Shown piece after piece: positions 7,385 to 63,438 of a DNA stretch of 64,000 nt. Each line of letters opens with the position of its first letter. Within the stretch, counting starts at the first letter, position 1. This DNA comes from Oricola thermophila (GTDB taxonomy: Bacteria; Pseudomonadota; Alphaproteobacteria; Rhizobiales; Rhizobiaceae). The notes beneath the pieces are model-generated. The model ran no database searches. It had not been told where the DNA came from and saw nothing but the letters and a program-made list of their open reading frames with translations. The position numbers and the translations under genes are program-made. The stretch covers positions 1,860,001-1,924,000 of the forward strand of contig NZ_CP054836.1 of NCBI RefSeq assembly GCF_013358405.1. The letters are read 5' to 3'.

Positions 7385-7418
7385 TCCGACGCAGTCCATG
7401 CCGGACGGAAGGCGGCGT

Positions 7419-7450
7419 TCGCGTCGCACGCCGCCTTTGCCGCCTCAGGA
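7419..7450 (+). terminator. Rho-independent terminator after the DUF2147 gene
   Basis: AAGGCGGCG (7419-7427) and CGCCGCCTT (7439-7447) form a perfect 9-bp stem with an 11-base loop, 34 bp after the stop codon, followed by TTTG. The A-flanked stem would also work on the other strand. Confidence 0.7.
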
Positions 7451-7753
7451 GGTCGGATCGGTCGCCCTCGAAAGGGTCTGGCATTCCGGGTGCCGATCGC
7501 CGAAACGTGCGATGACGGATCGAGAGTTTCGGGGGCGAAATCCGCCATCGCGCCGCTTCGGCAAGCCGAAAAATATTGAATTTTGTCCGCCGGATAATAC
7601 CGGTGCCGGTCATAACTATTATTCCTCGGCGGAATGCCCGCCGCACCGCTGCGGGTGGCCCCGCATGAATCGCGCAAGGCCAACGGTTCGTCGACCGCGC
7701 CCTGCCTCGCTGGCAACGCGCAAGGGGCGATGCGATCATGCCGATTTTCGCAC

Positions 7754-7808
7754 CTTACGAAAAATTCATCTTGCGGAAAGTGGCATGTAAGCTTCGCGCA
7801 CATATATC
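7754..7808 (+). promoter_or_regulatory. Conserved promoter-like element shared with the degP upstream region
   Basis: This 55-base block has a near-identical partner at 55286-55340 on the minus strand, directly upstream of degP. The first 43 positions differ at only six bases, and both end in TATATC at the same spacing. The element contains CTTACG and TGTAAG (CGTAAG at degP) as inverted ends of a 38-base unit with GCGGAAAG in the middle. A -10-like TATATC lacking a -35 box, preceded by a dyad, suggests an activator-dependent promoter. Here it points towards 7809-8121, a stretch with no convincing gene apart from a 30-codon ORF, so it may drive a small RNA or small protein. Bases 7451-7753 show nothing else I can support. 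Confidence 0.6.
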
Positions 7809-7865
7809 CCGTCCGGACGGTCAATCCGCCCGGCCGACGGAACATCCACGCGAGGATACCACACA

Positions 7866-7958
7866 GTGACGACGTTCCCCGAACTTTCCGCCACTCCCCC
7901 GCTTCGCCAGCACGCCACCCCCGACCGCTGGCGCAGAAAAACCGTACCGCCCAGTTGA
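7866..7958 (+). CDS. Possible 30-residue small ORF downstream of the degP-like promoter element
   Basis: GTG at 7866 is preceded by AGGA at 7853-7856 with a 9-base spacing, a good ribosome site, and lies 58 bp after the TATATC of the element at 7754-7808. The frame encodes 30 residues, rich in Pro, Thr and Arg, with no signal peptide or membrane segment, and stops at 7956-7958. The position makes it the best candidate product of that promoter, but codon statistics cannot decide at this length and a non-coding RNA is equally possible. Confidence 0.25.
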   Translation: MTTFPELSATPPLRQHATPDRWRRKTVPPS

Positions 7959-8121
7959 ACCGACCGGCAGCGCGACGGGCCGCCCTCCACATCCGCCGGC
8001 GCAGCGCCGTTCAACGCCTCCCCGCACAGACGGCCTGCAGGTCGGCCGGTAGCTGCCCGGAATGCCAGACGAGACAAGTTCCGCCTTGGCGCCCCCGAAT
8101 TATTCCCCTATGGAATGAATC

Positions 8122-9039
8122 ATGGATCTCATTGCCGCATTCAAGACGTTTGTGAGGGTAGCCGAAACCGAGAGCTTCTCGGCCGCCGCGCGGGAGTTCA
8201 ATATCGGCCAGCCGGCCGTTTCCAAGCAGATCGCGGCGCTCGAGGACCATCTCGGCACACGGCTTCTGCAGCGCTCCACCCGGAAACTGACACTGACCGA
8301 CGAGGGCATGGAGTTTCTTGCGCATGCGCGCGACGCGATCGCCGCCACCGATGAAGCGATCGAGCAGGCGCGCGGCCGCAGGGGGCGCGTCGCCGGCGTG
8401 CTGCGCATGACGGCGAGCGCAAGCTTCGGCCGCATGCATATCGTTCCCCGACTGCATCTGCTTGGCGCGCGCTTTCCGGAACTGCGCGTGGACCTCGTCC
8501 TGCAGGACAGGCTCGTGGACATGGTCAGCCAGGGCATCGACCTCGCGATACGCTTCGGCGAGCCACGCGAGCCCAACCTAATCGCGAAACGGCTGGGCAC
8601 CATGCGGATGATCGTCGTTGCCTCGAAATCCTATCTCGACCGCCGCGGGCGCCCGGAACATCCCGAGGATCTCAAGAACCACGACTGCCTTGTCTTCGGC
8701 GGGATGCAGGACACCGACCAGTGGTCGTTCACGAAGAACGGCAAGATCATCCAGGTCGGCGTGAACTGGCGGGTGCGAGCGGACAATTCCGATGCATTGC
8801 GCCAGGCCGTGCTGGATGGCCTCGGGATCGGCATGATGCCAAGCTGGTTGTTTCCCGACCTTTGGGAGAACGACGAGCTCGAAACGATGCTGGACGATTA
8901 CGAGAAAGCGACCATGCCGATGTATGCGGTCTACCCGTCACGGCGCTACACGCCGGCGAAAGTGCGCGCCATGATCGACTTCCTGGAGCACGAGATCAGC
9001 CTCGACCCGACAATGACGGGCGGCATCGGGCTGGTGTGA
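8122..9039 (+). CDS. LysR-family transcriptional regulator
   Basis: 305-residue regulator with the LysR winged HTH at residues about 3-62 (FVRVAETESFSAAAREFNIGQPAVSKQIAALEDHLGTRLLQRSTRKLTLTDEG) and a LysR_substrate periplasmic-binding-like effector domain from about 90 (LRMTASASFGRMHIVPRLHLL). The subgroup with this opening and the motif DLAIRFGEP belongs to the CrgA/PA2877-like LysR clade. The neighbouring peroxiredoxin is convergent rather than divergent, so it is not an obvious target. A tiny frame at 8062-8118 ends three bases before this ATG and could be a leader ORF. Target and inducer unknown. Confidence 0.88.
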   Translation: MDLIAAFKTFVRVAETESFSAAAREFNIGQPAVSKQIAALEDHLGTRLLQRSTRKLTLTDEGMEFLAHARDAIAATDEAIEQARGRRGRVAGVLRMTASASFGRMHIVPRLHLLGARFPELRVDLVLQDRLVDMVSQGIDLAIRFGEPREPNLIAKRLGTMRMIVVASKSYLDRRGRPEHPEDLKNHDCLVFGGMQDTDQWSFTKNGKIIQVGVNWRVRADNSDALRQAVLDGLGIGMMPSWLFPDLWENDELETMLDDYEKATMPMYAVYPSRRYTPAKVRAMIDFLEHEISLDPTMTGGIGLV

Positions 9040-9894: not shown

Positions 9895-10230
9895 CTAGCG
9901 CAGGTAGAAGATCACCTTGCCGTTGGCCGTTTCATCGGCTTCGACGATGTTGTCGACCTGCACGTTCTGGCCGGCCAGGCCGTTTACCAGCGTCGGGTTG
10001 GCACGCACCGCCTGCTGCACGGCATCGGCATTGGCGGCGGCGCTGCGCCTGATGGCGTCGGCCTTGTACTCGTCGACGGCCTCGACCGTGTCGATGCGGC
10101 GGACGACATAGTCGCCTTCACCGACGGACTGGATCGCGGAGGCGGCGGAGAATGCGCCCGCCTCGGCTGCGCCGGAGAGAGCGAGGACAGCAACGGCACC
10201 GGCCGCGAAGGAGGAGATAAGAGCGTTCAT
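9895..10230 (-). CDS. Small secreted protein, tandem paralogue 1
   Basis: 111-residue protein with an N-terminal signal peptide (about residues 1-24, ending GAAEAG). The mature part is mainly polar and includes SAIQSVGEGDYVVRRIDTVE and ends in IFYLR. The ATG at 10230 is preceded by AGGAAAGACATTACA. It is 97/111 identical by eye to the gene at 10400-10735; most changes fall in the signal peptide, so the secreted part is under stronger constraint. I do not recognise a domain. The periplasm or outside is the likely location; function unknown. Confidence 0.7.
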   Translation of the reverse strand: MNALISSFAAGAVAVLALSGAAEAGAFSAASAIQSVGEGDYVVRRIDTVEAVDEYKADAIRRSAAANADAVQQAVRANPTLVNGLAGQNVQVDNIVEADETANGKVIFYLR

Positions 10231-10363
10231 TGTAATGTCTTTCCTGTTCAATTCCACTTGGTCGGGGGACACGAGCGGGACAGCGACCACCCCCAGGCGG
10301 GAGGATGAGGTCGGGGGAGTGTCTTGGGGCAGTTCCGATCGGCCGCCGCCCCGCTCGCACATG

Positions 10364-10399: not shown

Positions 10400-10735
10400 T
10401 TAGCGCAGGTAGAAGATCACCTTGCCGTTGGCCGTTTCATCGGCGTCGACGATGTTGTCGACCTGCACGTTCTGGCCGGCCAGGCCGTTTACCAGCGTCG
10501 GGTTGGCGCGGACCGCCTGCTGCACGGCACCGGCATTGGCGGCGGCGCTGCGCCGGATGGCGTCGGCCTTGTCCTTATCAACGGCCTCGACCGTGTCGAT
10601 GCGGCGGACGACATAGTCGCCATCACCGATGGACTGGATCGCGGAGCCGGCCGAGAATGCGCCGGCCTGGGCAGCACCCGAGATCGCGAGAACGGTTACG
10701 GCAGCAGCCGCGGCGGAGGAGATGAGCTTTTTCAT
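10400..10735 (-). CDS. Small secreted protein, tandem paralogue 2
   Basis: 111 residues, same length and architecture as its neighbour at 9895-10230, with a signal peptide of about 24 residues ending GAAQAG. Start at 10735 with GGAAAGGTACGAAA upstream. In the mature part only seven positions differ from paralogue 1 by eye. Upstream of both starts the bases TTTCCTG and TCAAT are shared, so the duplication unit included the 5' leader. No known domain recognised; the same orientation and 169-bp spacing suggest independent or read-through transcription. Confidence 0.7.
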   Translation of the reverse strand: MKKLISSAAAAAVTVLAISGAAQAGAFSAGSAIQSIGDGDYVVRRIDTVEAVDKDKADAIRRSAAANAGAVQQAVRANPTLVNGLAGQNVQVDNIVDADETANGKVIFYLR

Positions 10736-11029
10736 TTTCGTACCTTTCCTGGTCAATCGTGTTCGTTCATTCGGCCCTTGGGCCATTGGGGGTCTCGAGC
10801 GACGCGGGCAGCCGACCATTTCGAGGGAGGAGGTCGGTGGGAGCGGCCGGCTGCCGCGTCGTTTCGATGAGTGGGATATGATTGATGCCAGCCAAAACCA
10901 GAAGTGCGTGCGACTTCATATGTTTCATTCCTCTTGGGAATTAATCACCCTGAATGCCGGGTGAACGGCCAAGTCAGCGGCGGTTCAGGCGCGTGGCGTG
11001 AAGATCGGCCGAAAACCCGGAGCCCGCCC

Positions 11030-45448: not shown

Positions 45449-47830
45449 TTGTCTGTTGCGGGGTTGGATAACGCCACATCTGTTGCCATGACGGGCCACG
45501 CCCGTTTCCTGGCCAGCCCCGCCTATTCCCGCCTCACCGCCATCGAGCCGTTCCTGAAGCGGTCCATCCCGGTCCTGATCACCGTGTTTCTCGCCGTGGT
45601 GTTCACGGCGCGCGCCATGGCGCTGATGACCGACCGGGTCGAGATCGAGCACAACGGCCGGCTGTTCCTCTCCCTGATCTCGGAAACCGCGAAGACCGCA
45701 CTGGAGACGTCGCGGCGAACGGGCCTGGAACCGAAGAGCGGCGCGCAGTTCGAGCAGCTCCTGTTCCGCGCCCTGCCCGAGGAAGCCACCTATGGCGGGC
45801 GGTTCCTCGTCGTCACCGACGACAGCGGGCGGGTCATCGGACAGCGCGGCGCCCGGGGCGAACTGGTCGGCTCCAACCTCCAGGCGAAGCTGACGGGCGC
45901 GCAGGCGCTGTTCCTGTTCGGCTCCGGCGCGGGCGTGCAGCAGGTGACGCTGGACGGCGAACCGCACATGGCCGCCGCGGTGAAGACCGGCGACGGCAAC
46001 GCCGTGATCGCGGTGCTGCAATCGCAGAGCGACATGTTCGCGCCCTGGCGCAAGCGGCTCTCGCTCAACGTGACCCTGTTCGTCGCCTCCTCCTCGCTGC
46101 TCATCATCCTGCTCTACGCCTATTTCGGCCAGGCGGCACGGGCGCAGGAAGCCGACGAGACCTATTGCGAGACGCAGAAGCGCGTCGATCTCGCCTTGAC
46201 CCGCGGCCATTGCGGCCTGTGGGACTGGGACCTCGCCCGCGGACGCATCTACTGGTCGTGCTCGATGTTCGAGATGCTCGGCTACCAGGCCAGCGACGAC
46301 ATCCTTTCCTTCGGCGAGGTGCGCCAGCTCATCCATCCGGACGACATCGACCTCTTCGACCTCGCCAAGCGCGCCGCCGCACAGGAAATCCGCCGCGTCG
46401 ACCAGCTGTTCCGCATGCGTCACGCCGACGGTCACTACCGCTGGATGCGCATCCGTACCGAGCTGGTGGAAAAGGGCGGCACCGGCGTGCACCTGATCGG
46501 CATCGCCGTCGACGTGACCGACCACGCACGGCTGGCCGAGGAAAACGCGCTGGCAAACGAGAACCTGCGCGCGGCCATCGAGAGCACGTCGGAATCCTTC
46601 GCCCTGTGGGACGCCGACGACCGGCTGGTGATGTGCAACACCAAGTTCCAGGAATACAACGGCCTGCCGCCGGAAGCGGTCAAGCCGGGCACCCCGCGCG
46701 AGACCATCAACGCGATGATGCGCGCACCGATCAGCGAGAAACGCATCCCGAGCCCGAAGAACCATGACGGCGCACAGACCTTCGAGCGCCAGATCGCGGA
46801 CGGGCGCTGGCTCCAGGTCAACGAACGCCGCACGTCTAGCGGCGGCATGATCTCCGTCGGCTCCGACATCACGCAGCTGAAGCTGCACCAGGAGCGGCTG
46901 ATGGAAAGCGAGCGCCGGCTCATGGCGACGATCCACGACCTGTCGCTGGCGCGCAAGGCATCGCTGCAGAAGGCCGGCGAGCTGGAAGAGCTGAATGCGA
47001 AATATCTCGAGGCGCGCGACAAGGCAGAGGCCGCAAACCGGGCGAAATCGGGCTTCCTCGCCAACATGTCGCATGAGTTGCGTACCCCGCTCAACGCCAT
47101 CATCGGCTTCTCGGAAATCCTGCAATCCGGCATGTTCGGCCCGCTCGGCTCGGACCGCTACAAGGAGTATGTCAGCGACATTCACGCCTCCGGCACGTTC
47201 CTGCTCGGTGTCATCAACGACATTCTCGACATGTCCAAGATCGAGGCCGGCCGGGTGGAACTGGAGCGCGAGGAACTCGACCTGGCGCCGCTGATCGACG
47301 AGACACTGCAGATGGTGTCGATCCAGGCGGAGGAGAAGAACGTCGCCATCGAACAGTCGATCGACGACACAATACGCATCTTCGCCGACCGGCGGGCAAT
47401 GAAGCAGGTAACGCTCAACCTGCTGTCGAACGCGGTGAAGTTCACCGGCGAAGGCGGCCGTATCCGCATACGCGCCAAGACCGTGCGCGGCGCGGTCCAG
47501 GTCTCCATCGAGGATACGGGTTGCGGCATACCGCCATCGGCGCTGAAGCGGCTCGGACGGCCATTCGAGCAGGTGCAGAACCAGCTGACGCGCAGCCATT
47601 CCGGCTCCGGCCTCGGACTCGCCATCGCCAGGTCGCTGACCGAACTCCACGGCGGGACGCTCAAGATCCGCTCCAAGCCGAATGTCGGCACGATCGTCGC
47701 GATCCGCATTCCCTGCAACGGCGGTCCCGCCGACGGGGACTGCCAGGAGACGGCAGGCGCGAAAAGAAAAGACGGGCCGGAAGAACCGGCCCGCCAGGAA
47801 GAGAAACTCCAGATAGGCGACGCGGCCTAG
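45449..47830 (+). CDS. pleC: PAS-containing sensor histidine kinase, PleC-like
   Basis: 793-residue membrane kinase/phosphatase. Hydrophobic segments at about 38-58 and 211-231 bracket a periplasmic region; two PAS domains follow (about 250-370 with HCGLWDWDLARGRIYWSCSMFEMLGY, and 375-490), then the dimerisation/phosphoacceptor box NMSHELRTPLNAIIGFSEIL (His near 541) and the ATPase domain with N, G1 (DTGCGIPPS) and G2 (GSGLGLAIA) boxes. The box is that of the PdhS family, and the position beside glnE, a two-component pair and degP matches my recollection of pleC in Sinorhizobium. PleC sets DivK phosphorylation for polarity. A TTG start at 45449 (GGGGGAATGG upstream) or ATG 45488; choice open. 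Confidence 0.78.
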   Translation: MSVAGLDNATSVAMTGHARFLASPAYSRLTAIEPFLKRSIPVLITVFLAVVFTARAMALMTDRVEIEHNGRLFLSLISETAKTALETSRRTGLEPKSGAQFEQLLFRALPEEATYGGRFLVVTDDSGRVIGQRGARGELVGSNLQAKLTGAQALFLFGSGAGVQQVTLDGEPHMAAAVKTGDGNAVIAVLQSQSDMFAPWRKRLSLNVTLFVASSSLLIILLYAYFGQAARAQEADETYCETQKRVDLALTRGHCGLWDWDLARGRIYWSCSMFEMLGYQASDDILSFGEVRQLIHPDDIDLFDLAKRAAAQEIRRVDQLFRMRHADGHYRWMRIRTELVEKGGTGVHLIGIAVDVTDHARLAEENALANENLRAAIESTSESFALWDADDRLVMCNTKFQEYNGLPPEAVKPGTPRETINAMMRAPISEKRIPSPKNHDGAQTFERQIADGRWLQVNERRTSSGGMISVGSDITQLKLHQERLMESERRLMATIHDLSLARKASLQKAGELEELNAKYLEARDKAEAANRAKSGFLANMSHELRTPLNAIIGFSEILQSGMFGPLGSDRYKEYVSDIHASGTFLLGVINDILDMSKIEAGRVELEREELDLAPLIDETLQMVSIQAEEKNVAIEQSIDDTIRIFADRRAMKQVTLNLLSNAVKFTGEGGRIRIRAKTVRGAVQVSIEDTGCGIPPSALKRLGRPFEQVQNQLTRSHSGSGLGLAIARSLTELHGGTLKIRSKPNVGTIVAIRIPCNGGPADGDCQETAGAKRKDGPEEPARQEEKLQIGDAA

Positions 47831-48354
47831 TTCCGTCCGGAGCGGTGGTGACGGAAGTCCCGGTCGCCGCCGCGGCGCGGACCGTCCCCGCGCAGAGAAC
47901 GCATCTCGTCTTCCTCGATCTCGCCGGACTCATCGACATCGAGCCGCGCGAACATCTCGTTGCGATGGTTTTCAATCTCGGCGACGGAAACCTTGCCGTC
48001 ATTGTCGGTGTCGAAACGCTCGATCATGCGCTCGGCGCGACGGCGCAGCATCTCGCGCTCCATCCGGGCCGCCAGCTCCTCGGCATCGATGTTGCCGTCG
48101 CCATCCGCATCGGCGTCGGCGAAGGGAAGCGGCGAAACGGCGGCGAATTCCTCGAGCGTCACGGTTCCGGAATTGTCCTTGTCCGCGCGCTGAAACATCA
48201 GCCCGGGGCCATCGCCGCGCATGTTCTGCCCGTAATGCTGGCGCTCGCCGCGCATCTTGCCGCGCGGGCCGCCATCGGCATAGGCGCTAGCCACCGCCGT
48301 GGCCGAAACTGCAATACCGGTAATGATAATCGCGATCTTCGAAGTCGTTTTCAT
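47827..48354 (-). CDS. Secreted EF-hand calcium-binding protein
   Basis: 175-residue exported protein. A signal peptide covers about residues 1-26 (KIAIIITGIAVSATAVASAYA). Four EF-hand loops are visible: DKDNSGTVTLEE, DADGDGNIDAEE, DTDNDGKVSVAE and DVDESGEIEEDE, spaced as two pairs, with the acidic residues at positions 1, 3, 5 and 12 kept. The C-terminus is Arg/His/Asp-rich. A periplasmic Ca2+ buffer or sensor is inferred. ATG 48354 with AAAGGACG upstream. Its stop shares 4 bp with that of the convergent PleC-like gene (TAG inside CTAG). glnE lies 67 bp away on the same strand. Confidence 0.85.
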   Translation of the reverse strand: MKTTSKIAIIITGIAVSATAVASAYADGGPRGKMRGERQHYGQNMRGDGPGLMFQRADKDNSGTVTLEEFAAVSPLPFADADADGDGNIDAEELAARMEREMLRRRAERMIERFDTDNDGKVSVAEIENHRNEMFARLDVDESGEIEEDEMRSLRGDGPRRGGDRDFRHHRSGRN

Positions 48355-48421: not shown

Positions 48422-51379
48422 TCAGGAACGGGGATCCCCAAGAACGGCGCGGAATATCTCCGACACCCTCTCCTCGGTCTCCACAATATGTGCCTGCATG
48501 GTTTCCAGATCCGGAAACCCGCCGGCGGCACAAAGGCGATCGACAAGTCCTTTCGGCGCGGTCTTCGGATCGAAATCCCTTTCCGTGCACAGGCGGACCA
48601 TCTGCATGATCGCCGAGTAGTCCGCGAATGCCCCGGCGAGTATCTCTCTCTCGTTCTCGCCAATCGGAGCGTCGTTGGACAGCCTCAAGATATGCGCGGC
48701 GTCGCGCCCATTCAAATTACCATTTGGTAAGCCGGACAGAACGAGAAATTGCGCAATGAAATCAACGTCCATGAGCCCGCCGGAGACCAGCTTGACATCC
48801 CAGGGACCGCGGGCCGGCTTTTCCTTCAGCAGGCGCCTGCGCATGGAAACGATGTCCTCCTTCAGCTTCGCGGGATCGCGCGGCAGCGCCAGAACCGCGC
48901 GCAGCTCCGCCTCGGTCCGCTCGCGCAGTTCCGGATCCCCGGCGACGGTTCGGGCGCGGCAGAGCGCCTGGTGTTCCCAGGTCCACGCGTCATTGCGCTG
49001 ATACCTGGAAAAGCCGCGGAAGGTGGTGGCGAGCGGCCCCTTGTTGCCTGAGGGCCGCAGACGGAAATCGACCTCGTAGAGCACGCCCTCGGCGGTCGGC
49101 GCCGTCAGCGCGGAGATCAGGCGCTGGGTCAGGCGCATGAAATAGGTCGGCGCAGGCAGGGGCTTGGGGCCGTCGCTCTCGTCCGTCTCCTCGGCCACGT
49201 CGTAGAGAAGGATCAGGTCGAGATCGCTGCCGGCGGTCATCTCGCGCGATCCGAGACGGCCCAGCCCGATCACGCAGACCTGCGCACCCTCTATCGTGCC
49301 GTGCTTCTCTGCCAGTTCCGCGCGAGCCGCGTCGAGCGCGTATTCGACGATCAGCTCGGCAAGGTCGGCGAAGGCGCGGCCGGCCTCCATGGCCTCGATG
49401 TTGCCGGTGAGCAGGCGCACGCCGATGAGAAAGCGCTGCTCCGCCGCAAAGATGCGAAGGCGGTCGAGAACTTCCTCGTAAGCCCTTGCCTCGCCGATGA
49501 AATCGTCGAGCCGCGTCCTCTGCTCGTCCTTGCCCGGCGCGCCGGAGAAGAAGGCAGGATCGAGAATGCCGTCGAATACGAGGGGCTTGGCCGTGATGAT
49601 GCCGCCGAGACGCGGCGCAGCCGACAGGATCAGCGCCATCAGGTTGATGAGGCGCGGGTTGGACTGGAGCATGGAAAAGAGCTGGATGCCGGCAGGAAGG
49701 CCAGAAAGGAAGCGGTCGAAGCCCATGACGGCCTCGTCGGCCTGGCCGCTCTCGGCGAATAAACGCAGCAGAAGCGGCGTGATCTCCGTCAGGCGCGCGC
49801 GGGCGCGCTCCGACTGCAGGGCGCGATAGCGGCCCATGTGCCACTGGCTGACCACGCGCCAGATGTCGTTCGGCCGCTTGTAGCCCATGCGCGACAGGGT
49901 CTCGACCGTGCCGGGATCGGGATCGTCGCCGGTGAAGGCCAGGTTGCCCTCGACGCCGAGATCCGGCTCGTGCTCGAACAGGTCGGCATAGTGGGTCTCG
50001 ACCTCGCGAAGCGTATCGAGGAACTCCGCGCGAAACGCGTCGCCATCGGCGAAACCGAGCAGGCGCCCGACGCGCTCGATGCCCTCGGCATCCGCCGGCA
50101 GCTTGTGGGTCTGCTCGTCGCCGATCATCTGGATGGCGTGCTCGACGCGGCGCAGGAAGCGATAGCAGCGCGATAGCGTCCCGGCGGCCTCCTGCTCGAT
50201 CGAGCCGTGATCGGCGAGCGCATGGAGCATGGCGACGGTGCCGCGGCCCCGCAATTCCGGCACCCTGCCCCCGAAAATGAGCTGCTGGGTCTGCACGAAG
50301 AACTCGATCTCGCGGATGCCGCCGCGCCCGAGCTTCACGTTGTGGCCCTCGATGGCAATGGCCCCGTGGCCCTTGTGAGCATGGATCTGGCGCTTGATGG
50401 AGTGGATGTCGGCGATGGAGGCGTAGTCGAGATGCTTGCGCCAGATGAAGGGCCGCAACTCGTACAGGAAGCGCTCGCCGGCCCCGATGTCGCCGGCCGC
50501 GGCCCTGGCCTTGATCATGGCGGCGCGCTCCCAGTTCTGGCCGCGCGCCTCGTAATAGAGAAGCGCCGCCTCGACGGGAATGGCGAGCGGCGTGGAACCG
50601 GGGTCCGGGCGCAGGCGCAGGTCGGTGCGGAAGACGTAACCGTCGCCCGTACGCTCCTGCATGATGCGGACGAGACGGCGCGTCATGCGTATCACGGTCT
50701 CGCCGATCGCGTCGCGATCCGGCCAGCGCAGCCCGGCGGGCTCCGGGTCGAACAGCGCGATCAGGTCTATGTCGGAGGAATAGTTGAGCTCGCGGGCGCC
50801 AAGCTTGCCCATGGCAAGGAAAAACCAGCCGCAGCCCCTCTCCGGCTCGGCCGGATCGGACAGTTCCAGCTTTCCGGCATTGTGGGCGTCGCGCAGGATC
50901 CATGCCGCGGCGGCGCCCAGCGAGGTCTCGGCAAAACGCGACAGCCAGCCGGTCGTTTCCTCGACGTCGATGGCACCCGCGAGATCGGCAAGCGCGATCA
51001 GCAGGTGCAGCGCCGCCTTCTCGCGGCGCAGCGCGGTCATCAGCTCGGCCTCGGAGCCGGCGAAGCCCTCGCCGTGGCGCATGGCCTCGGTGCGCGAAAG
51101 GATCGCGTCCAGCTTCGCCGAAACAGGTTCGTCGAACAGGCCTTCCAGAAGACCCGCCTGGCGCTCGATCTGGTGGGAAAGGAAATGAGAATGCGCCATG
51201 ACGGCGACGAGAAAGCCGGCAAGCGGGCCGCCTTCCCCGACCAGCCGCGCCAACCGCGCGGCGCCGGCGTTCTCGGCAGCGGCAAGAAGCGTGGTGCGTG
51301 CCTTTTCGGCGGCCCCGGCATCGCCCGCGTGAAGCGTCCGTGCCGGCCTGCCGAACCAGAGCGTTCCGTCTTCAGCCAT
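48422..51379 (-). CDS. glnE: Bifunctional glutamine synthetase adenylyltransferase/deadenylylase
   Basis: 985-residue cytoplasmic enzyme that adds and removes AMP on glutamine synthetase under PII control. Two nucleotidyltransferase domains are visible: the N-terminal deadenylylase with GKLGARELNYSSDIDLIALFD (residues 191-211), and the C-terminal adenylyltransferase with GLGRLGSREMTAGSDLDLILLYD (about 700-725), each keeping the DxD metal pair. Between them are the regulatory GlnD_UR_UTase-type helical segments. Length fits rhizobial GlnE. ATG 51379 after CGGAGGGGAC. Downstream of the two-component pair on the same strand. Confidence 0.96.
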   Translation of the reverse strand: MAEDGTLWFGRPARTLHAGDAGAAEKARTTLLAAAENAGAARLARLVGEGGPLAGFLVAVMAHSHFLSHQIERQAGLLEGLFDEPVSAKLDAILSRTEAMRHGEGFAGSEAELMTALRREKAALHLLIALADLAGAIDVEETTGWLSRFAETSLGAAAAWILRDAHNAGKLELSDPAEPERGCGWFFLAMGKLGARELNYSSDIDLIALFDPEPAGLRWPDRDAIGETVIRMTRRLVRIMQERTGDGYVFRTDLRLRPDPGSTPLAIPVEAALLYYEARGQNWERAAMIKARAAAGDIGAGERFLYELRPFIWRKHLDYASIADIHSIKRQIHAHKGHGAIAIEGHNVKLGRGGIREIEFFVQTQQLIFGGRVPELRGRGTVAMLHALADHGSIEQEAAGTLSRCYRFLRRVEHAIQMIGDEQTHKLPADAEGIERVGRLLGFADGDAFRAEFLDTLREVETHYADLFEHEPDLGVEGNLAFTGDDPDPGTVETLSRMGYKRPNDIWRVVSQWHMGRYRALQSERARARLTEITPLLLRLFAESGQADEAVMGFDRFLSGLPAGIQLFSMLQSNPRLINLMALILSAAPRLGGIITAKPLVFDGILDPAFFSGAPGKDEQRTRLDDFIGEARAYEEVLDRLRIFAAEQRFLIGVRLLTGNIEAMEAGRAFADLAELIVEYALDAARAELAEKHGTIEGAQVCVIGLGRLGSREMTAGSDLDLILLYDVAEETDESDGPKPLPAPTYFMRLTQRLISALTAPTAEGVLYEVDFRLRPSGNKGPLATTFRGFSRYQRNDAWTWEHQALCRARTVAGDPELRERTEAELRAVLALPRDPAKLKEDIVSMRRRLLKEKPARGPWDVKLVSGGLMDVDFIAQFLVLSGLPNGNLNGRDAAHILRLSNDAPIGENEREILAGAFADYSAIMQMVRLCTERDFDPKTAPKGLVDRLCAAGGFPDLETMQAHIVETEERVSEIFRAVLGDPRS

Positions 51380-51459: not shown

Positions 51460-52869
51460 CTAAGGCTTCGCGGCGGGGAATGACAAGACGACTTTCAGGC
51501 CGGGATGCGCGTCCTCCAGCGACAACTCGCCGCCATGCAGGCCCATGATCGCGGCGACGAGGCTCAGTCCGAGACCGGATCCGGGCTTGCTGCGGCTCTC
51601 GTCGAGGCGCACGAAACGGCCCTTGACGCGCTCCCTGTCGCCCTCGGGAATGCCCGGCCCCTGGTCCGCGACCGAAAGCCGGATCTTGCCCGCCGCCTCG
51701 TCGCGGGATGCGGACAGGACGATGCGCCCGTCGGGCACGGAACCGTACTTGATGGCATTGTCGATCAGGTTGGTGACGGCCTGGCCGATCAGTTCGCGCT
51801 TACCGGCGATCGGCAGCGGCCCCTCGACCTCGTTGACCAGCGTCATGCCCGCATCCTCGACCAGCGGCTCGTAGAGCTCGGCCACCTCGGCGGCGATGGC
51901 CGCAAGGTCGATATCGTCAAGCTTCTGCTTCGAGAAACCGGCCTCGACCCGGCTGATCAGCAACAGGGCGTTGAACACCTTGATGAGCTGGTCGGCCTCG
52001 ACGATCATGTCCTCCAGCACGGCGCGGTAGTCGGTGTCGTCCGGATTGCCGGCGAGCGCGGCCTCGGCGCGGTTGCGCAGCCGCGTGAGCGGCGTCTTCA
52101 GGTCGTGGGCGATCGAATCCGACACGTCGCGAAGCCCGTCATTCAGCTTCGATATCTTCTCGATCATCGAGTTGAGGCTCTCGGACAGGCGGTCGAACTC
52201 GTCATTGGCGCCCGATACGGGAAGCCGGCCGGAAAGATCGCCGGCAACGATGCGCGCGCTCGCCGCCGACACCCTGTCGATGCGATGAAGCGCCCGGCGG
52301 CCGACGAAGAACCAGATCAGGAAACCGCCGGCGGCCATGAAGGCCAGCGCGGTGATCAGCGCTCGGCGGACAAGCTCGCGGAAACGCTGCGGCTCGCCGA
52401 GATCGCGGCCGACGAGAATGCGCATGCCGGAATCGACAACGATGACGCGGGCAAGCGCGCGGGGCGCATTCTCCGGGTCCTCGATGACGCCGACATCGTC
52501 GCCGAAACGGGCATAGGCGAAGGGACGCTCAGTCCATCCCTCGGTGTCGATCACGCCCGGTTCCAGCGCGATGACGTTTCCGGTGAGAATGCGGCCGGTG
52601 TTGTCCGCGATCATGTAGAGATTGGCGCCCGGGCGGCGCGAGCGCCGGTCGATGGCGAGGACCAGCGCGCGCAGGCCGTTGCGCTGGTAGATGCCGTCGA
52701 GATCGCGCAGCTCGGCGCTGACGGATTTCTGCGTCTCGGCCATCATCAGGCGGGCCGCCGACCCGGTCATGTAGAAAACGAGAAAGACGGCGCAGGCGGT
52801 GAACAGCACCAGGTAGAGCGCCGACAGCCGCGCCGCCGTGGTGTTGAATGCGGAAAGGAGCTTCTTCAT
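51460..52869 (-). CDS. Sensor histidine kinase with HAMP domain
   Basis: 469-residue inner-membrane kinase: transmembrane segments at about 14-36 and 170-190, a periplasmic domain of about 130 residues, a HAMP domain (about 190-245; RRALHRIDRVSAASARIVAGDLSGRLPV), HisKA box DSIAHDLKTPLTRLRNRAEAAL with His255, and an ATPase domain with NLIDNAIKYG, ADQGPGIPEG and GSGLGLSLVAAIMGLHGG. The response-regulator gene lies 9 bp upstream on the same strand. Position between glnE and degP suggests an envelope-sensing role, but the signal is unknown. It resembles the SMc02367-type kinase as I recall it. Confidence 0.92.
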   Translation of the reverse strand: MKKLLSAFNTTAARLSALYLVLFTACAVFLVFYMTGSAARLMMAETQKSVSAELRDLDGIYQRNGLRALVLAIDRRSRRPGANLYMIADNTGRILTGNVIALEPGVIDTEGWTERPFAYARFGDDVGVIEDPENAPRALARVIVVDSGMRILVGRDLGEPQRFRELVRRALITALAFMAAGGFLIWFFVGRRALHRIDRVSAASARIVAGDLSGRLPVSGANDEFDRLSESLNSMIEKISKLNDGLRDVSDSIAHDLKTPLTRLRNRAEAALAGNPDDTDYRAVLEDMIVEADQLIKVFNALLLISRVEAGFSKQKLDDIDLAAIAAEVAELYEPLVEDAGMTLVNEVEGPLPIAGKRELIGQAVTNLIDNAIKYGSVPDGRIVLSASRDEAAGKIRLSVADQGPGIPEGDRERVKGRFVRLDESRSKPGSGLGLSLVAAIMGLHGGELSLEDAHPGLKVVLSFPAAKP

Positions 52870-52878
52870 GATGCGCCG

Positions 52879-53550
52879 TCAGTCACGCATCATGTAGCCG
52901 GCACCGCGGACCGTGTGCAGAAGCGGCTTGTCGAAGCCCTTCTCGATCTTGGACCGCAGGCGCGAGATGTGCACGTCGATGACATTGGTCTGCGGGTCGA
53001 AGTGGTAGTCCCACACGTTCTCCAGCAGCATGGTGCGGGTGACGACCTGGCCGGCATGGCGCATCAGGTATTCGAGCAGGCGGTACTCGCGCGGCTGAAG
53101 CGGGATCACCTGGCCGGCGCGCTTGACCTCGTGGGACAGGCGGTTGAGCACGAGGTCGCCGACCTGGTAGCGGGTCTCCTGCTCGGCGCCGCTCTGGCGC
53201 CGCAGCAGCACCTCCAGGCGGGCCAGCAGCTCGGAAAAGGCATAGGGCTTGGTCAGGTAGTCGTCGCCGCCGGCGCGAAGCCCGGTCACGCGGTCGTCCA
53301 CCTCGCCCAGCGCCGACAGCACCAGGGCCGGTGTCATGTCGCCCGCGGCACGCAGCGCCGAGATCACGGACAGGCCGTCACGCTTGGGCAACATGCGATC
53401 GACGACGAGCGCATCGTAGGTGCCGGACTCGGCCATGCTGTAGCCGTCGTCGCCGTTGTGGGCGACGTCCGCGCTATGGCCGGCCTCCTCCATCGCCTTC
53501 TTCAGGTAGGCGGCGGCCTCCATATCGTCTTCAATGACAAGGACTTTCAT
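52879..53550 (-). CDS. OmpR-family response regulator
   Basis: 223 residues: receiver domain (1-115) with acidic pair EDD at 7-9, phosphoacceptor D51 (LVVDRMLPKRDGL) and Lys in LTKPYAFSELLARL, and a winged-helix DNA-binding domain (about 125-220) with LQPREYRLLEYLMRHAGQVVTRTMLLENVWDYHFDPQTNVIDVHISRLRSKI. Partner of the downstream kinase (9-bp gap). degP lies upstream with a long hairpin between, so degP and this pair may form one transcript with partial termination. Targets unknown; the shared degP-type promoter element is a natural candidate. Confidence 0.94.
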   Translation of the reverse strand: MKVLVIEDDMEAAAYLKKAMEEAGHSADVAHNGDDGYSMAESGTYDALVVDRMLPKRDGLSVISALRAAGDMTPALVLSALGEVDDRVTGLRAGGDDYLTKPYAFSELLARLEVLLRRQSGAEQETRYQVGDLVLNRLSHEVKRAGQVIPLQPREYRLLEYLMRHAGQVVTRTMLLENVWDYHFDPQTNVIDVHISRLRSKIEKGFDKPLLHTVRGAGYMMRD

Positions 53551-53696: not shown

Positions 53697-55229
53697 TCAG
53701 CCCTGGTCTATCGGCAGTGCGACGAACCGGCTGGCATCACCGCGCTCGACCAGTATCAGGGCGGCCTTGCGACCGGCCTCTGCCACGTCGTCGAGCGCCT
53801 TCTCGATATCCTCGGCCGAGGCAACTGCCTCGTTGTTGACCTCGATCACCTTGTCGCCGACGCGGATGCCGGCGTCGGCGGCGGCACTGTCCGGGTCCAC
53901 GCCCGTGACCACAACACCGTCGCCATCATCGGCGGGCATGACGTTCAGGCCGAAATCCGCCAGCGCCGTTTCCGCGGTGCGGCCGGGCGCCGAGCGCGCC
54001 GATGCGACCTGGTCGTTGCCCGGTAATTCGCCGAGTTCCACGGTCACCGAGCGTTCGCGCCCGCGGCGCAGGTAGGTGATCTCGACCTTGGAGCCGGGAT
54101 CGTAGCTGGCGATGACCCGGGCCAGCTCGCGCGCGTCGCTCACTTCCCTGCCATCGACGGCCGTTATTATGTCGCCGGCGCGGATCCCGGCCTTGTCGGC
54201 CGGCGCACCCTCCGCGGGGTCGGCGACCAGCGCGCCGCGCGCCTCGTCGAGGCCGAGGGACTCGGCAATCTCGGCCGTTACCGGCTGGATCGACACGCCG
54301 AGCCAGCCGCGCTCGACAGTGCCGTCCTCCATCAGTTCGGCGACGACATCCTTGGCAACGGATGCGGGAACCGCGAAGGCGATGCCAACATTGCCGCCCG
54401 AGGGCGTGAAGATCGCGGTGTTCACGCCGACGACCTCTCCGTTGAGGTTGAAGGTCGGACCGCCGGAATTGCCGCGGTTCACTGCGGCATCGATCTGGAT
54501 GAAGTCGTCATAGGGACCGGCGCCAATGTCGCGACCGCGGGCCGAGACGATGCCGGCGGTGACGGTGCCGCCGAGCCCGAAGGGATTGCCGACGGCAACC
54601 ACCCAGTCGCCGACCCGCACCCTGGAGTCGTCGGCGAAGGCGACATAGGTGAACTTGCGATCGTCATCGACCTTGAGGACGGCCAGGTCGGTACGCGGAT
54701 CGGTGCCGACCAGTTCCGCCTCGAGCTCGGTACCGTCATCCGTAACGATGGTGAATTCGGTGCCGCCCTCCACCACGTGATTGTTCGTCACGAGGTAGCC
54801 ATCCTCCGAGATGAAGAAGCCGGAACCCTGCGCGACAGGGCGTGCCCGGTTGCGGCGCTGCGAACGCCGATTGTTGAAACCGTCGGGATTGCGGAACTGC
54901 GGGCCGAACTCCTCGAAGAACCGGCGCAAGGGATGATTGCGCGGCAGGTCCTCGAAACCGCGGCCATCAAAGGGGCCGAGATCGGAAACGGCGGGCTGGA
55001 TGTCGGATTTCACGCGAACCGAAACGACGGCCGGCGACACCTTTTCGATAATGTCCGCGAAACCGGGAGCGTTGGCCTGCGTCTCGACGCGAACGGCTTC
55101 GGCATTGGCGGGCGCCGTGACGGCGCCGGAGAACCCGGCAATGCCCACGCCGAGCACGGTCGACGCGACAAGCGCGGCGGCCAGCTTCCTGGCGACAGAG
55201 CTACGGAAAGTGGGCTTGGAAGTGGTCAT
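53697..55229 (-). CDS. degP: Do-family periplasmic serine protease/chaperone
   Basis: 510-residue HtrA protease degrading misfolded envelope proteins. Signal peptide or anchor about 1-45 (cleavage near ANAEA). The trypsin-like domain has His151 (VTNNHVVEGG), Asp181 (TDPRTDLAVLKV) and Ser255 (NRGNSGGPTF). Two PDZ domains follow, about 275-370 (GWLGVSIQPVTAEIAESLG, starting after VERG) and 410-500. An Arg/Asn-rich linker (FNNRRSQRRNRARP) near 118-131 precedes the catalytic domain. Start at 55229; the unusual promoter element at 55286-55340 lies 57 bp upstream. Followed by the two-component pair, so envelope stress control is likely. Confidence 0.95.
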   Translation of the reverse strand: MTTSKPTFRSSVARKLAAALVASTVLGVGIAGFSGAVTAPANAEAVRVETQANAPGFADIIEKVSPAVVSVRVKSDIQPAVSDLGPFDGRGFEDLPRNHPLRRFFEEFGPQFRNPDGFNNRRSQRRNRARPVAQGSGFFISEDGYLVTNNHVVEGGTEFTIVTDDGTELEAELVGTDPRTDLAVLKVDDDRKFTYVAFADDSRVRVGDWVVAVGNPFGLGGTVTAGIVSARGRDIGAGPYDDFIQIDAAVNRGNSGGPTFNLNGEVVGVNTAIFTPSGGNVGIAFAVPASVAKDVVAELMEDGTVERGWLGVSIQPVTAEIAESLGLDEARGALVADPAEGAPADKAGIRAGDIITAVDGREVSDARELARVIASYDPGSKVEITYLRRGRERSVTVELGELPGNDQVASARSAPGRTAETALADFGLNVMPADDGDGVVVTGVDPDSAAADAGIRVGDKVIEVNNEAVASAEDIEKALDDVAEAGRKAALILVERGDASRFVALPIDQG

Positions 55230-55285: not shown

Positions 55286-55340
55286 GATATAGGCAACCGA
55301 AACTTACGTGCCGCTTTCCGCTACATGAAATTTTCGTAAG
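55286..55340 (-). promoter_or_regulatory. degP promoter element, partner of the copy at 7754-7808
   Basis: On the minus strand this 55-base block runs from CTTACG (55340) through GCGGAAAG to CGTAAG (ends at 55303) and TATATC (55291-55286). CTTACG/CGTAAG is a perfect inverted repeat bounding 38 bases. The TATATC lies 57 bp before the degP ATG, consistent with a -10 box, and the dyad covers the -35 area where no -35 hexamer is seen. Its near-copy at 7754-7808 differs at six of the first 43 positions. Confidence 0.65.
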
Positions 55341-55352
55341 GTTCGGAACGCG

Positions 55353-62751: not shown

Positions 62752-63438
62752 CTATCCGGCCTTCTTGTCCTGCTCGTCCGGCGCGGTCATGCGATAGCCG
62801 AGGCCGCGCACGGTCTCGATCAGGTCATGGCCGGCGAGCTTCTTGCGAAGCCGCCCGACGAATACCTCGATGGTGTTCGAGTCGCGGTCGAAATCCTGGT
62901 CGTAGAGATGCTCGACCAGCTCTGTCCGCGAAACCACCTCGCCGACATGGTGAGCGAGATAGGACAGCAGCCGGAACTCGTGGGATGTGAGCTTCAGCGT
63001 CACGCCGTCCACGATCGCCTTGGAGGCCCTGGTGTCCACGACCAGCGGGCCGCAGCGGATTTCGGAGGAGGCATGGCCCGCGGCGCGACGGATCAGGGCG
63101 CGCACCCGTGCAAGCACCTCCTCGACATGGAACGGCTTGGTCACGTAATCGTCGGCGCCGGCGTCGATGCCGGACACCTTGTCGCTCCAGCGGTCGCGCG
63201 CGGTCAGGATCAGCACGGGCATGGTGCGCCCGTCCTCGCGCCAACGCTGCAGCACCGAGATCCCGTCCATAACCGGCAGGCCGATATCGAGCACCACGCA
63301 GTCATAGGGCTCGGTGTCGCCCAGGAAATGGCCTTCCTCGCCGTCCGCCGCCGTGTCGACGACATAACCGGCATCCTCCAGCGCGGATTTCAGCTGTGCA
63401 TTGAGCGATGCGTCATCTTCGACGACGAGAATTCGCAT
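62752..63438 (-). CDS. feuP: OmpR-family response regulator, FeuP-like
   Basis: 228 residues: receiver domain with EDD at 7-9, D51 (VVLDIGLPVMDGI) and KPFHVEEVLARVRALIRRAAG, and a winged-helix output domain (LTSHEFRLLSYLAHHVGEVVSRTELVEHLYDQDFDRDSNTIEVFVGRLRKKL). The phrase EGHFLGDTEPYDCVVLDIGLPVMDGI is close to rhizobial FeuP as I remember it. Start at 63438. The cognate kinase follows 4 bp later. Upstream lies a small secreted protein gene in the same direction, 81 bp away, the PepSY-like neighbour often seen with such regulators. Confidence 0.85.
   Translation of the reverse strand: MRILVVEDDASLNAQLKSALEDAGYVVDTAADGEEGHFLGDTEPYDCVVLDIGLPVMDGISVLQRWREDGRTMPVLILTARDRWSDKVSGIDAGADDYVTKPFHVEEVLARVRALIRRAAGHASSEIRCGPLVVDTRASKAIVDGVTLKLTSHEFRLLSYLAHHVGEVVSRTELVEHLYDQDFDRDSNTIEVFVGRLRKKLAGHDLIETVRGLGYRMTAPDEQDKKAG

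Follow-up and report, generated by a model that had tools for sequence, protein, structure and literature searches.

A second copy of a degP-type promoter element precedes a LysR-family gene in Oricola thermophila

Introduction

The closest described relative of the system analyzed here is the degP1-SMc02366-SMc02367 locus of the model symbiont S. meliloti in which, as in our locus, degP has a two-component pair just downstream. According to extracts of the published reports, SMc02366 and SMc02367 rise together with degP1 on acid shift, and a polar effect of degP1 could account for this induction of the pair (PMC2651895). Acid induction of SMc02366 is also described in PMC4941405, where the regulator is called ragA. 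The competitive index under the plant antimicrobial peptide NCR247 is influenced by both genes, whose regulon was called "yet to be determined" in 2017 (PMC5539429, in extract). Additionally, degP1 in a tolC mutant increases 18.5- to 20.4-fold by array and 31.2-fold by PCR (PMC2912261, in extract), in line with an envelope-stress signal. A literature search, with subscription papers mostly outside its reach, found no published site or regulon for SMc02366/67.

Two-component control of degP together with the system's own operon is likewise a feature of Cpx in enterobacteria, for which the E. coli CpxR consensus is given as GTAAA-N5-GTAAA (PMC2912261, in extract). In rhizobia, FeuPQ is a neighboring system, and the FeuP motif is described as the direct repeat TTCA-N7-TTCA (extract of PMC3616915). 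For CenR, the reported site is the inverted repeat AGTCAC...GTGACT (extract of PMC9561847).

Here, we describe what appears to be a natural case of a promoter element copied ahead of another regulator. Compared with the S. meliloti locus, we propose a precise predicted site, a regulon consisting mostly of a single target operon and, in some genera, a secreted EF-hand protein as a co-target, all of which can be tested.

Results

Two copies of the element in one genome

The analysis concerns a 64,000-nucleotide stretch of the genome, hereafter the window, to which all unlabeled coordinates refer (Table 1). The original prediction had pointed to two near-copies within it. A recount confirmed that 37 of the 43 positions from 7754 onward agree and, by direct comparison, 7752-7808(+) and 55342-55286(-) are identical at 46 of 57 positions. 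Both copies end in TATATC at the same spacing and the flanks do not match (ungapped 60-bp flanks agree at only 24/60 and 20/60 positions), as had been claimed. The proposed dyad CTTACG...CGTAAG stands in part: it is exact in the degP copy, whereas the 7752 copy reads CTTACG...TGTAAG.

With a 91-base blastn query, the two copies were the sole places in the 3,998,539-base genome at E<=0.001. We also used a sequence-only profile of 57 positions (R1) made from 30 degP promoters of the family, including the window's own degP copy and excluding the 7752 copy. Over the whole 4.0-Mb genome, R1 returned only these two sites at E<=10. Judged by its sequence, the 55-base element duplicates a predicted control site that normally occurs once per genome, ahead of degP and a two-component regulator.

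Table 1. Coordinates of the features in the window.
Feature	Position	Strand	Basis
Second copy of degP-type activator element (predicted) with -10-like TATATC	7752..7808	+	R1 42.0 bits, E 2.6e-10 (not in model)
Element at degP	55286..55342	-	R1 49.8 bits, E 9.6e-13 (itself in model); aligned with 29 other family degP promoters
degP (HtrA-type protease)	53697..55229	-	Pfam Trypsin_2, PDZ
OmpR-type response regulator, proposed binder of element	52879..53550	-	Pfam Response_reg, Trans_reg_C
Sensor histidine kinase partner	51460..52869	-	Pfam HAMP, HisKA, HATPase_c
LysR-family regulator, proposed target	8122..9039	+	Pfam HTH_1, LysR_substrate
Stretch aligning with LysR promoter of G001, G002	7483..7636	+	Local alignment
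Segment with element, not found at LysR loci of G001-G003	7637..8098	.	Probable insertion
Left 19-bp repeat ATTATTCC-N5-GGAATG, segment edge	7618..7636	+	15/19 identical to 8099-8117
Right 19-bp repeat, overlaps LysR ribosome-site region	8099..8117	+	Repeat comparison
30-codon ORF of the original prediction, codon usage not coding-like	7866..7958	+	Log-odds -0.355 per codon
EF-hand protein, signal-like N-terminus (by eye)	47827..48354	-	Pfam EF-hand
glnE	48422-51379		Pfam GlnE

Architecture and conservation of the element at degP

In the window, degP, the OmpR-type regulator gene and the kinase gene follow each other on one strand from 55229 to 51460. The element had been placed in promoter position at degP, and this is borne out in relatives: it lies ahead of degP in all 30 of the aligned best-scoring family loci. 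Among the 30 aligned promoters, 16 columns are invariant (TTAC, AA, T, A, G, A, GTAA and the TA of the -10 box). By contrast, columns 29-34, which would hold a -35 box at a 17-bp spacer, are poorly conserved (0.16 to 0.96 bits), in agreement with the claim that no -35 box is present. The absent -35 box and the conservation at degP in relatives together support the earlier suggestion of a specific activator.

Taking columns 52-57 as the -10 box (-12 to -7) puts the midpoint of the element, by arithmetic, at about -42. Information content along the element has a best period of 11.25 bp, which was reached by 4 of 5000 permutations and, with blocks of three, by 50 of 5000. A period of about 11 bp is expected when OmpR-type proteins bind next to one another, and an activator at about -42 touches RNA polymerase and stands in for the -35 box. 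The block period of about 11 bp and the midpoint near -42 thus suggest an OmpR-type activator site.

A motif search in relatives, which had been proposed as a check, found the element kept at degP and not missing there. More specifically, 71 genomes of an 81-genome family sample had some match at E<=0.1, 69 at the degP locus and two (G041, G055) elsewhere. The degP gene was present in all 61 family genomes searched. Where degP and site were both mapped, 51-150 nt always separated the site from the first aligned base of degP downstream (52/52 genomes), and 9 further degP-mapped genomes had no site at threshold before degP. A survey of 394 family genomes gave a site at E<=5e-4 in 318 and none in 76, with stricter filters that may lose weak matches and with placement established one by one only within the 81-genome sample. 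At the order level, 33 of 61 genomes had a match at E<=0.001, 31 of these outside the family. Out-of-family loci were read in 28 cases and 27 proved to be at degP, 26 by tblastn and one (L164) judged by eye from a degP-like N-terminus near a contig end.

Linkage points to the regulator encoded behind degP

All 69 sites at the locus in the 81-genome sample are colinear with the best regulator match, which lies 1636-2028 nt downstream. A regulator ortholog of at least 62% identity is present in 77 of the 81 genomes; by count G063 would be the 78th regulator-bearing genome, but it carries a 41% paralog only. None of the four genomes devoid of a regulator ortholog (G010, G011, G063 and G094) has a site at E<=0.1. 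The upstream sequence was read for G010, G011 and G063. In G011, one window upstream of degP scores -6.5 against -29.9 for the second best, yet stays under the shuffle maximum of -4.4; it is perhaps a decayed site. Eight genomes have a regulator ortholog and no site at threshold. Seven of them were read, all except G075, in which the degP match starts only at residue 136, and six of the seven show a weaker site above 20 shuffles, while G100 does not. The thresholded counts of site and regulator ortholog are associated (Fisher p 3e-4, not corrected for kinship).

That the element tracks the regulator and not degP is drawn from one degP loss and four small, possibly related genomes. The degP loss is found in G449, the 28th of the out-of-family loci read: ccmH and the regulator have no degP between them, and this interval (L145, 1440-1886) still carries the element, about 340 nt before the regulator, which favors assigning the site to the regulator. 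We read the element as a putative autoregulatory site of a degP two-component system of the S. meliloti SMc02366/67 type.

A different regulator of the FeuP, CpxR or CenR type might bind the element instead, an alternative to which we give little credence. The present assignment comes from linkage, and the window does contain a paralogous response regulator at 62788-63438, which looks FeuP-like by position and similarity and to which the degP-linked regulator is 42% identical (G000:C1:1922788-1923438). However, the FeuP and E. coli CpxR motifs are absent from the 7752 copy, the CenR inverted repeat was not seen there by eye, G063 has no site with its 41% paralog only, and in G449 the site precedes the degP-linked regulator with degP missing from this locus. 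The degP-linked regulator scores 135.7 with the NCBIfam CpxR model, against a cut-off of 341; its best NCBIfam model is a heavy-metal regulator subfamily (236.3, below the cut-off of 279.2).

The second copy lies in a segment ahead of a LysR-family gene

The original prediction held that no known gene follows the 7752 copy. This is wrong: a co-directional LysR-family gene starts 313 nt after TATATC and, as the nearest plausible target, it is the gene to which the element points. LysR orthologs of 69-78% identity are found in three of five congeners (G001, G002 and G003), and a contig scan with LysR gave only distant LysR loci (31-43% identity).

Upstream of the element, the stretch ending at 7636 aligns with the LysR promoter of the orthologs, scoring 78 in G001 and 68 in G002 against shuffle maxima of 38 and 30, and marginally in G003 (32 against 31). 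Its counterpart ends within 2-5 bases of the LysR start codon in the orthologs, at 4-5 bases in G001 and G002, and lies about 480 bp away in the window. The old LysR promoter is still present, upstream of the intervening segment, which speaks against control of LysR by the element. Compared with 1 kb upstream of the three orthologs, this segment scores 36, 27 and 26, none over the 100-shuffle maxima of 40, 36 and 37. Apart from the element, its matches among 61 genomes are all short and weak (best E 1.8e-4). None of its tested reading frames matches a Pfam family, and a plasmid collection gave no match to 7385-8121. The element is probably within inserted DNA ahead of the LysR gene. An insertion sequence or MITE was considered and rejected: there are no terminal inverted repeats (longest match 7 bp), and the segment is single in the genome.

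The 19-bp repeat found on either side of the segment has kept its arms and differs in its center. An exact dyad, ATTCC-N5-GGAAT, occurs at 7621-7635, 8102-8116 and 10927-10941, three instances against 0.07 expected in the window, and looks like a LysR operator. Two minus-strand genes, 10400-10819 and 9895-10362, have the third dyad upstream of them and could form a LysR regulon. They lie in tandem and encode small proteins that resemble each other, match no NCBIfam model and have N-termini that look signal-like by eye.

The best reading, in our view and at slightly better than even chances, is that the degP two-component system controls LysR via the 7752 element. It builds on the two copies, their conservation, the regulator linkage, the segment and the direction of the element, which are observed, and it predicts binding, activation, transcription, an insertion event and LysR as the target. 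In outline, the element would combine a regulator binding site with a -10 box, and the regulator encoded behind degP would activate its own degP-regulator-kinase operon, an OmpR-type activator near -42 replacing the -35 box. A copy of a degP promoter element of the genus would have arrived in a segment of about 480 bp that now separates the LysR gene from its old promoter. There, the phosphorylated regulator would start a transcript at about 7815, and a leader of about 300 nt would be read into LysR, so that envelope stress would raise LysR. The element may in this manner wire the LysR gene to envelope stress.

Origin of the second copy

The 7752 copy keeps 25 of 27 high-information consensus positions, and the six genus degP sites keep 25 or 26. 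At low-information positions, it carries the genus majority base in 13 of 19 cases against 6.1 expected (sd 1.9; maximum of 11 among 28 outsiders). These genus-specific bases suggest descent from a degP promoter of the genus, and the 7752 copy was most likely copied from the degP promoter of its own genus.

Relative to the window's own degP copy, 11 of 57 positions differ, on average at low-information positions (p 1e-4), and the same bias holds against the other five genus degP copies (p 1.5e-4 to 8.2e-3). Two of the 11 differences are at higher-information positions (41 and 51). Only 3 positions are private to the 7752 copy, and they give weak evidence of bias (p 0.04). A strong second site is present in one of the six genus genomes, weaker extra matches in the others having E 0.057 or worse. 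The similarity of the 7752 copy could reflect a short, fairly recent duplication.

The 7752 copy may accordingly be viewed as the leftover of a short duplication or insertion that drives nothing useful. Its occurrence in a single genome of the genus speaks for such a relic, as do the segment's frames without a Pfam family and, beyond the element, its weak matches. The high-information positions are nevertheless kept as in the genus degP sites, TATATC is intact and the differences sit at positions variable in the family, which makes a relic rather unlikely, though a serious contender, next to LysR control.

That the 7752 copy marks the beginning of a degenerate second degP gene, an idea prompted by the start spacing (57 versus 56 nt) and an MTT start, was not established. 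The 90 nt after TATATC align with the six genus degP leaders at z <=0.8 in five cases and 3.6 in G001, where the score is 19.5 and 16 other gene starts reach at most 14.5; true ortholog pairs have z 3.9 to 30.7. In a looser anchored test against the window's own degP, 13 of 1000 shuffles reached the observed score; in an unanchored test, 88 of 300 did.

Downstream of the second copy

The original prediction had raised a small RNA or a 30-residue protein as the product of the element. Neither finds support in RNA fold, terminators, Rfam or codon usage. The stretch after the element has no unusual fold (z 0.42), no intrinsic terminator was found between element and LysR, and no Rfam family matches at gathering score. 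Two sub-threshold Rfam matches (E 0.38 and 0.73) are both upstream of the element; the former, at 7667-7740, is to the twister-sister ribozyme (18.5 bits, gathering 34) and most likely arose by chance.

The 30-codon ORF starts with GTG behind a GAGG ribosome-site-like stretch (by eye), at 57 nt after TATATC compared with 56 nt at degP. Its codon score is higher than that of 98% of out-of-frame windows (median -0.936, 95% point -0.468), which favors a micro-protein together with the start spacing, but under all 1200 in-frame windows from 12 local genes (median 0.554, 5% point 0.137). On these grounds we regard a small RNA or micro-protein as improbable.

The stretch 7809-8098 differs strongly in composition between its strands (C 125, G 78, A 55, T 32), and of 1275 windows of the region only 2 reach this skew. 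This C-rich, T-poor leader is a candidate for Rho loading, which could halt transcription before LysR, or it could be odd DNA.

Extra sites in other genomes and the predicted regulon

The window genome is one of 21 among the 318 site-bearing family genomes that have two sites at E<=5e-4. In the other 20, which come from 6 genera and are not 20 independent events, the second site precedes an EF-hand gene in 18 cases, and the EF-hand proteins have signal-like N-termini (by eye). In the window, an EF-hand gene lies directly after glnE, downstream of degP-regulator-kinase, and no site of its own was found by the R1 genome search at E<=10. We propose a predicted regulon of mostly one operon per genome, joined in some genera by a secreted EF-hand protein; this regulon appears far smaller than that of Cpx. 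The small secreted co-target of Cpx is, in the extracts available, CpxP, and the EF-hand proteins may be its parallel here. Tentatively, and with less confidence than we place in control of LysR, we suggest a near-single-operon degP system whose only recurrent extra target, a secreted calcium-binding EF-hand protein acquired in several genera, may report on or buffer periplasmic calcium for the kinase, LysR being newly captured in the present genome.

The second site of G396 (L121) precedes a DegP/HtrA paralog, so that a second gene of this type has its own copy of the element there. In G378, the second site (L133, 1501-1545) has no recognized protein downstream; about 200 nt on, a GC hairpin and T run resemble a terminator, and the next frame is an L33-like gene on the opposite strand (both by eye), so that a short transcript is possible.
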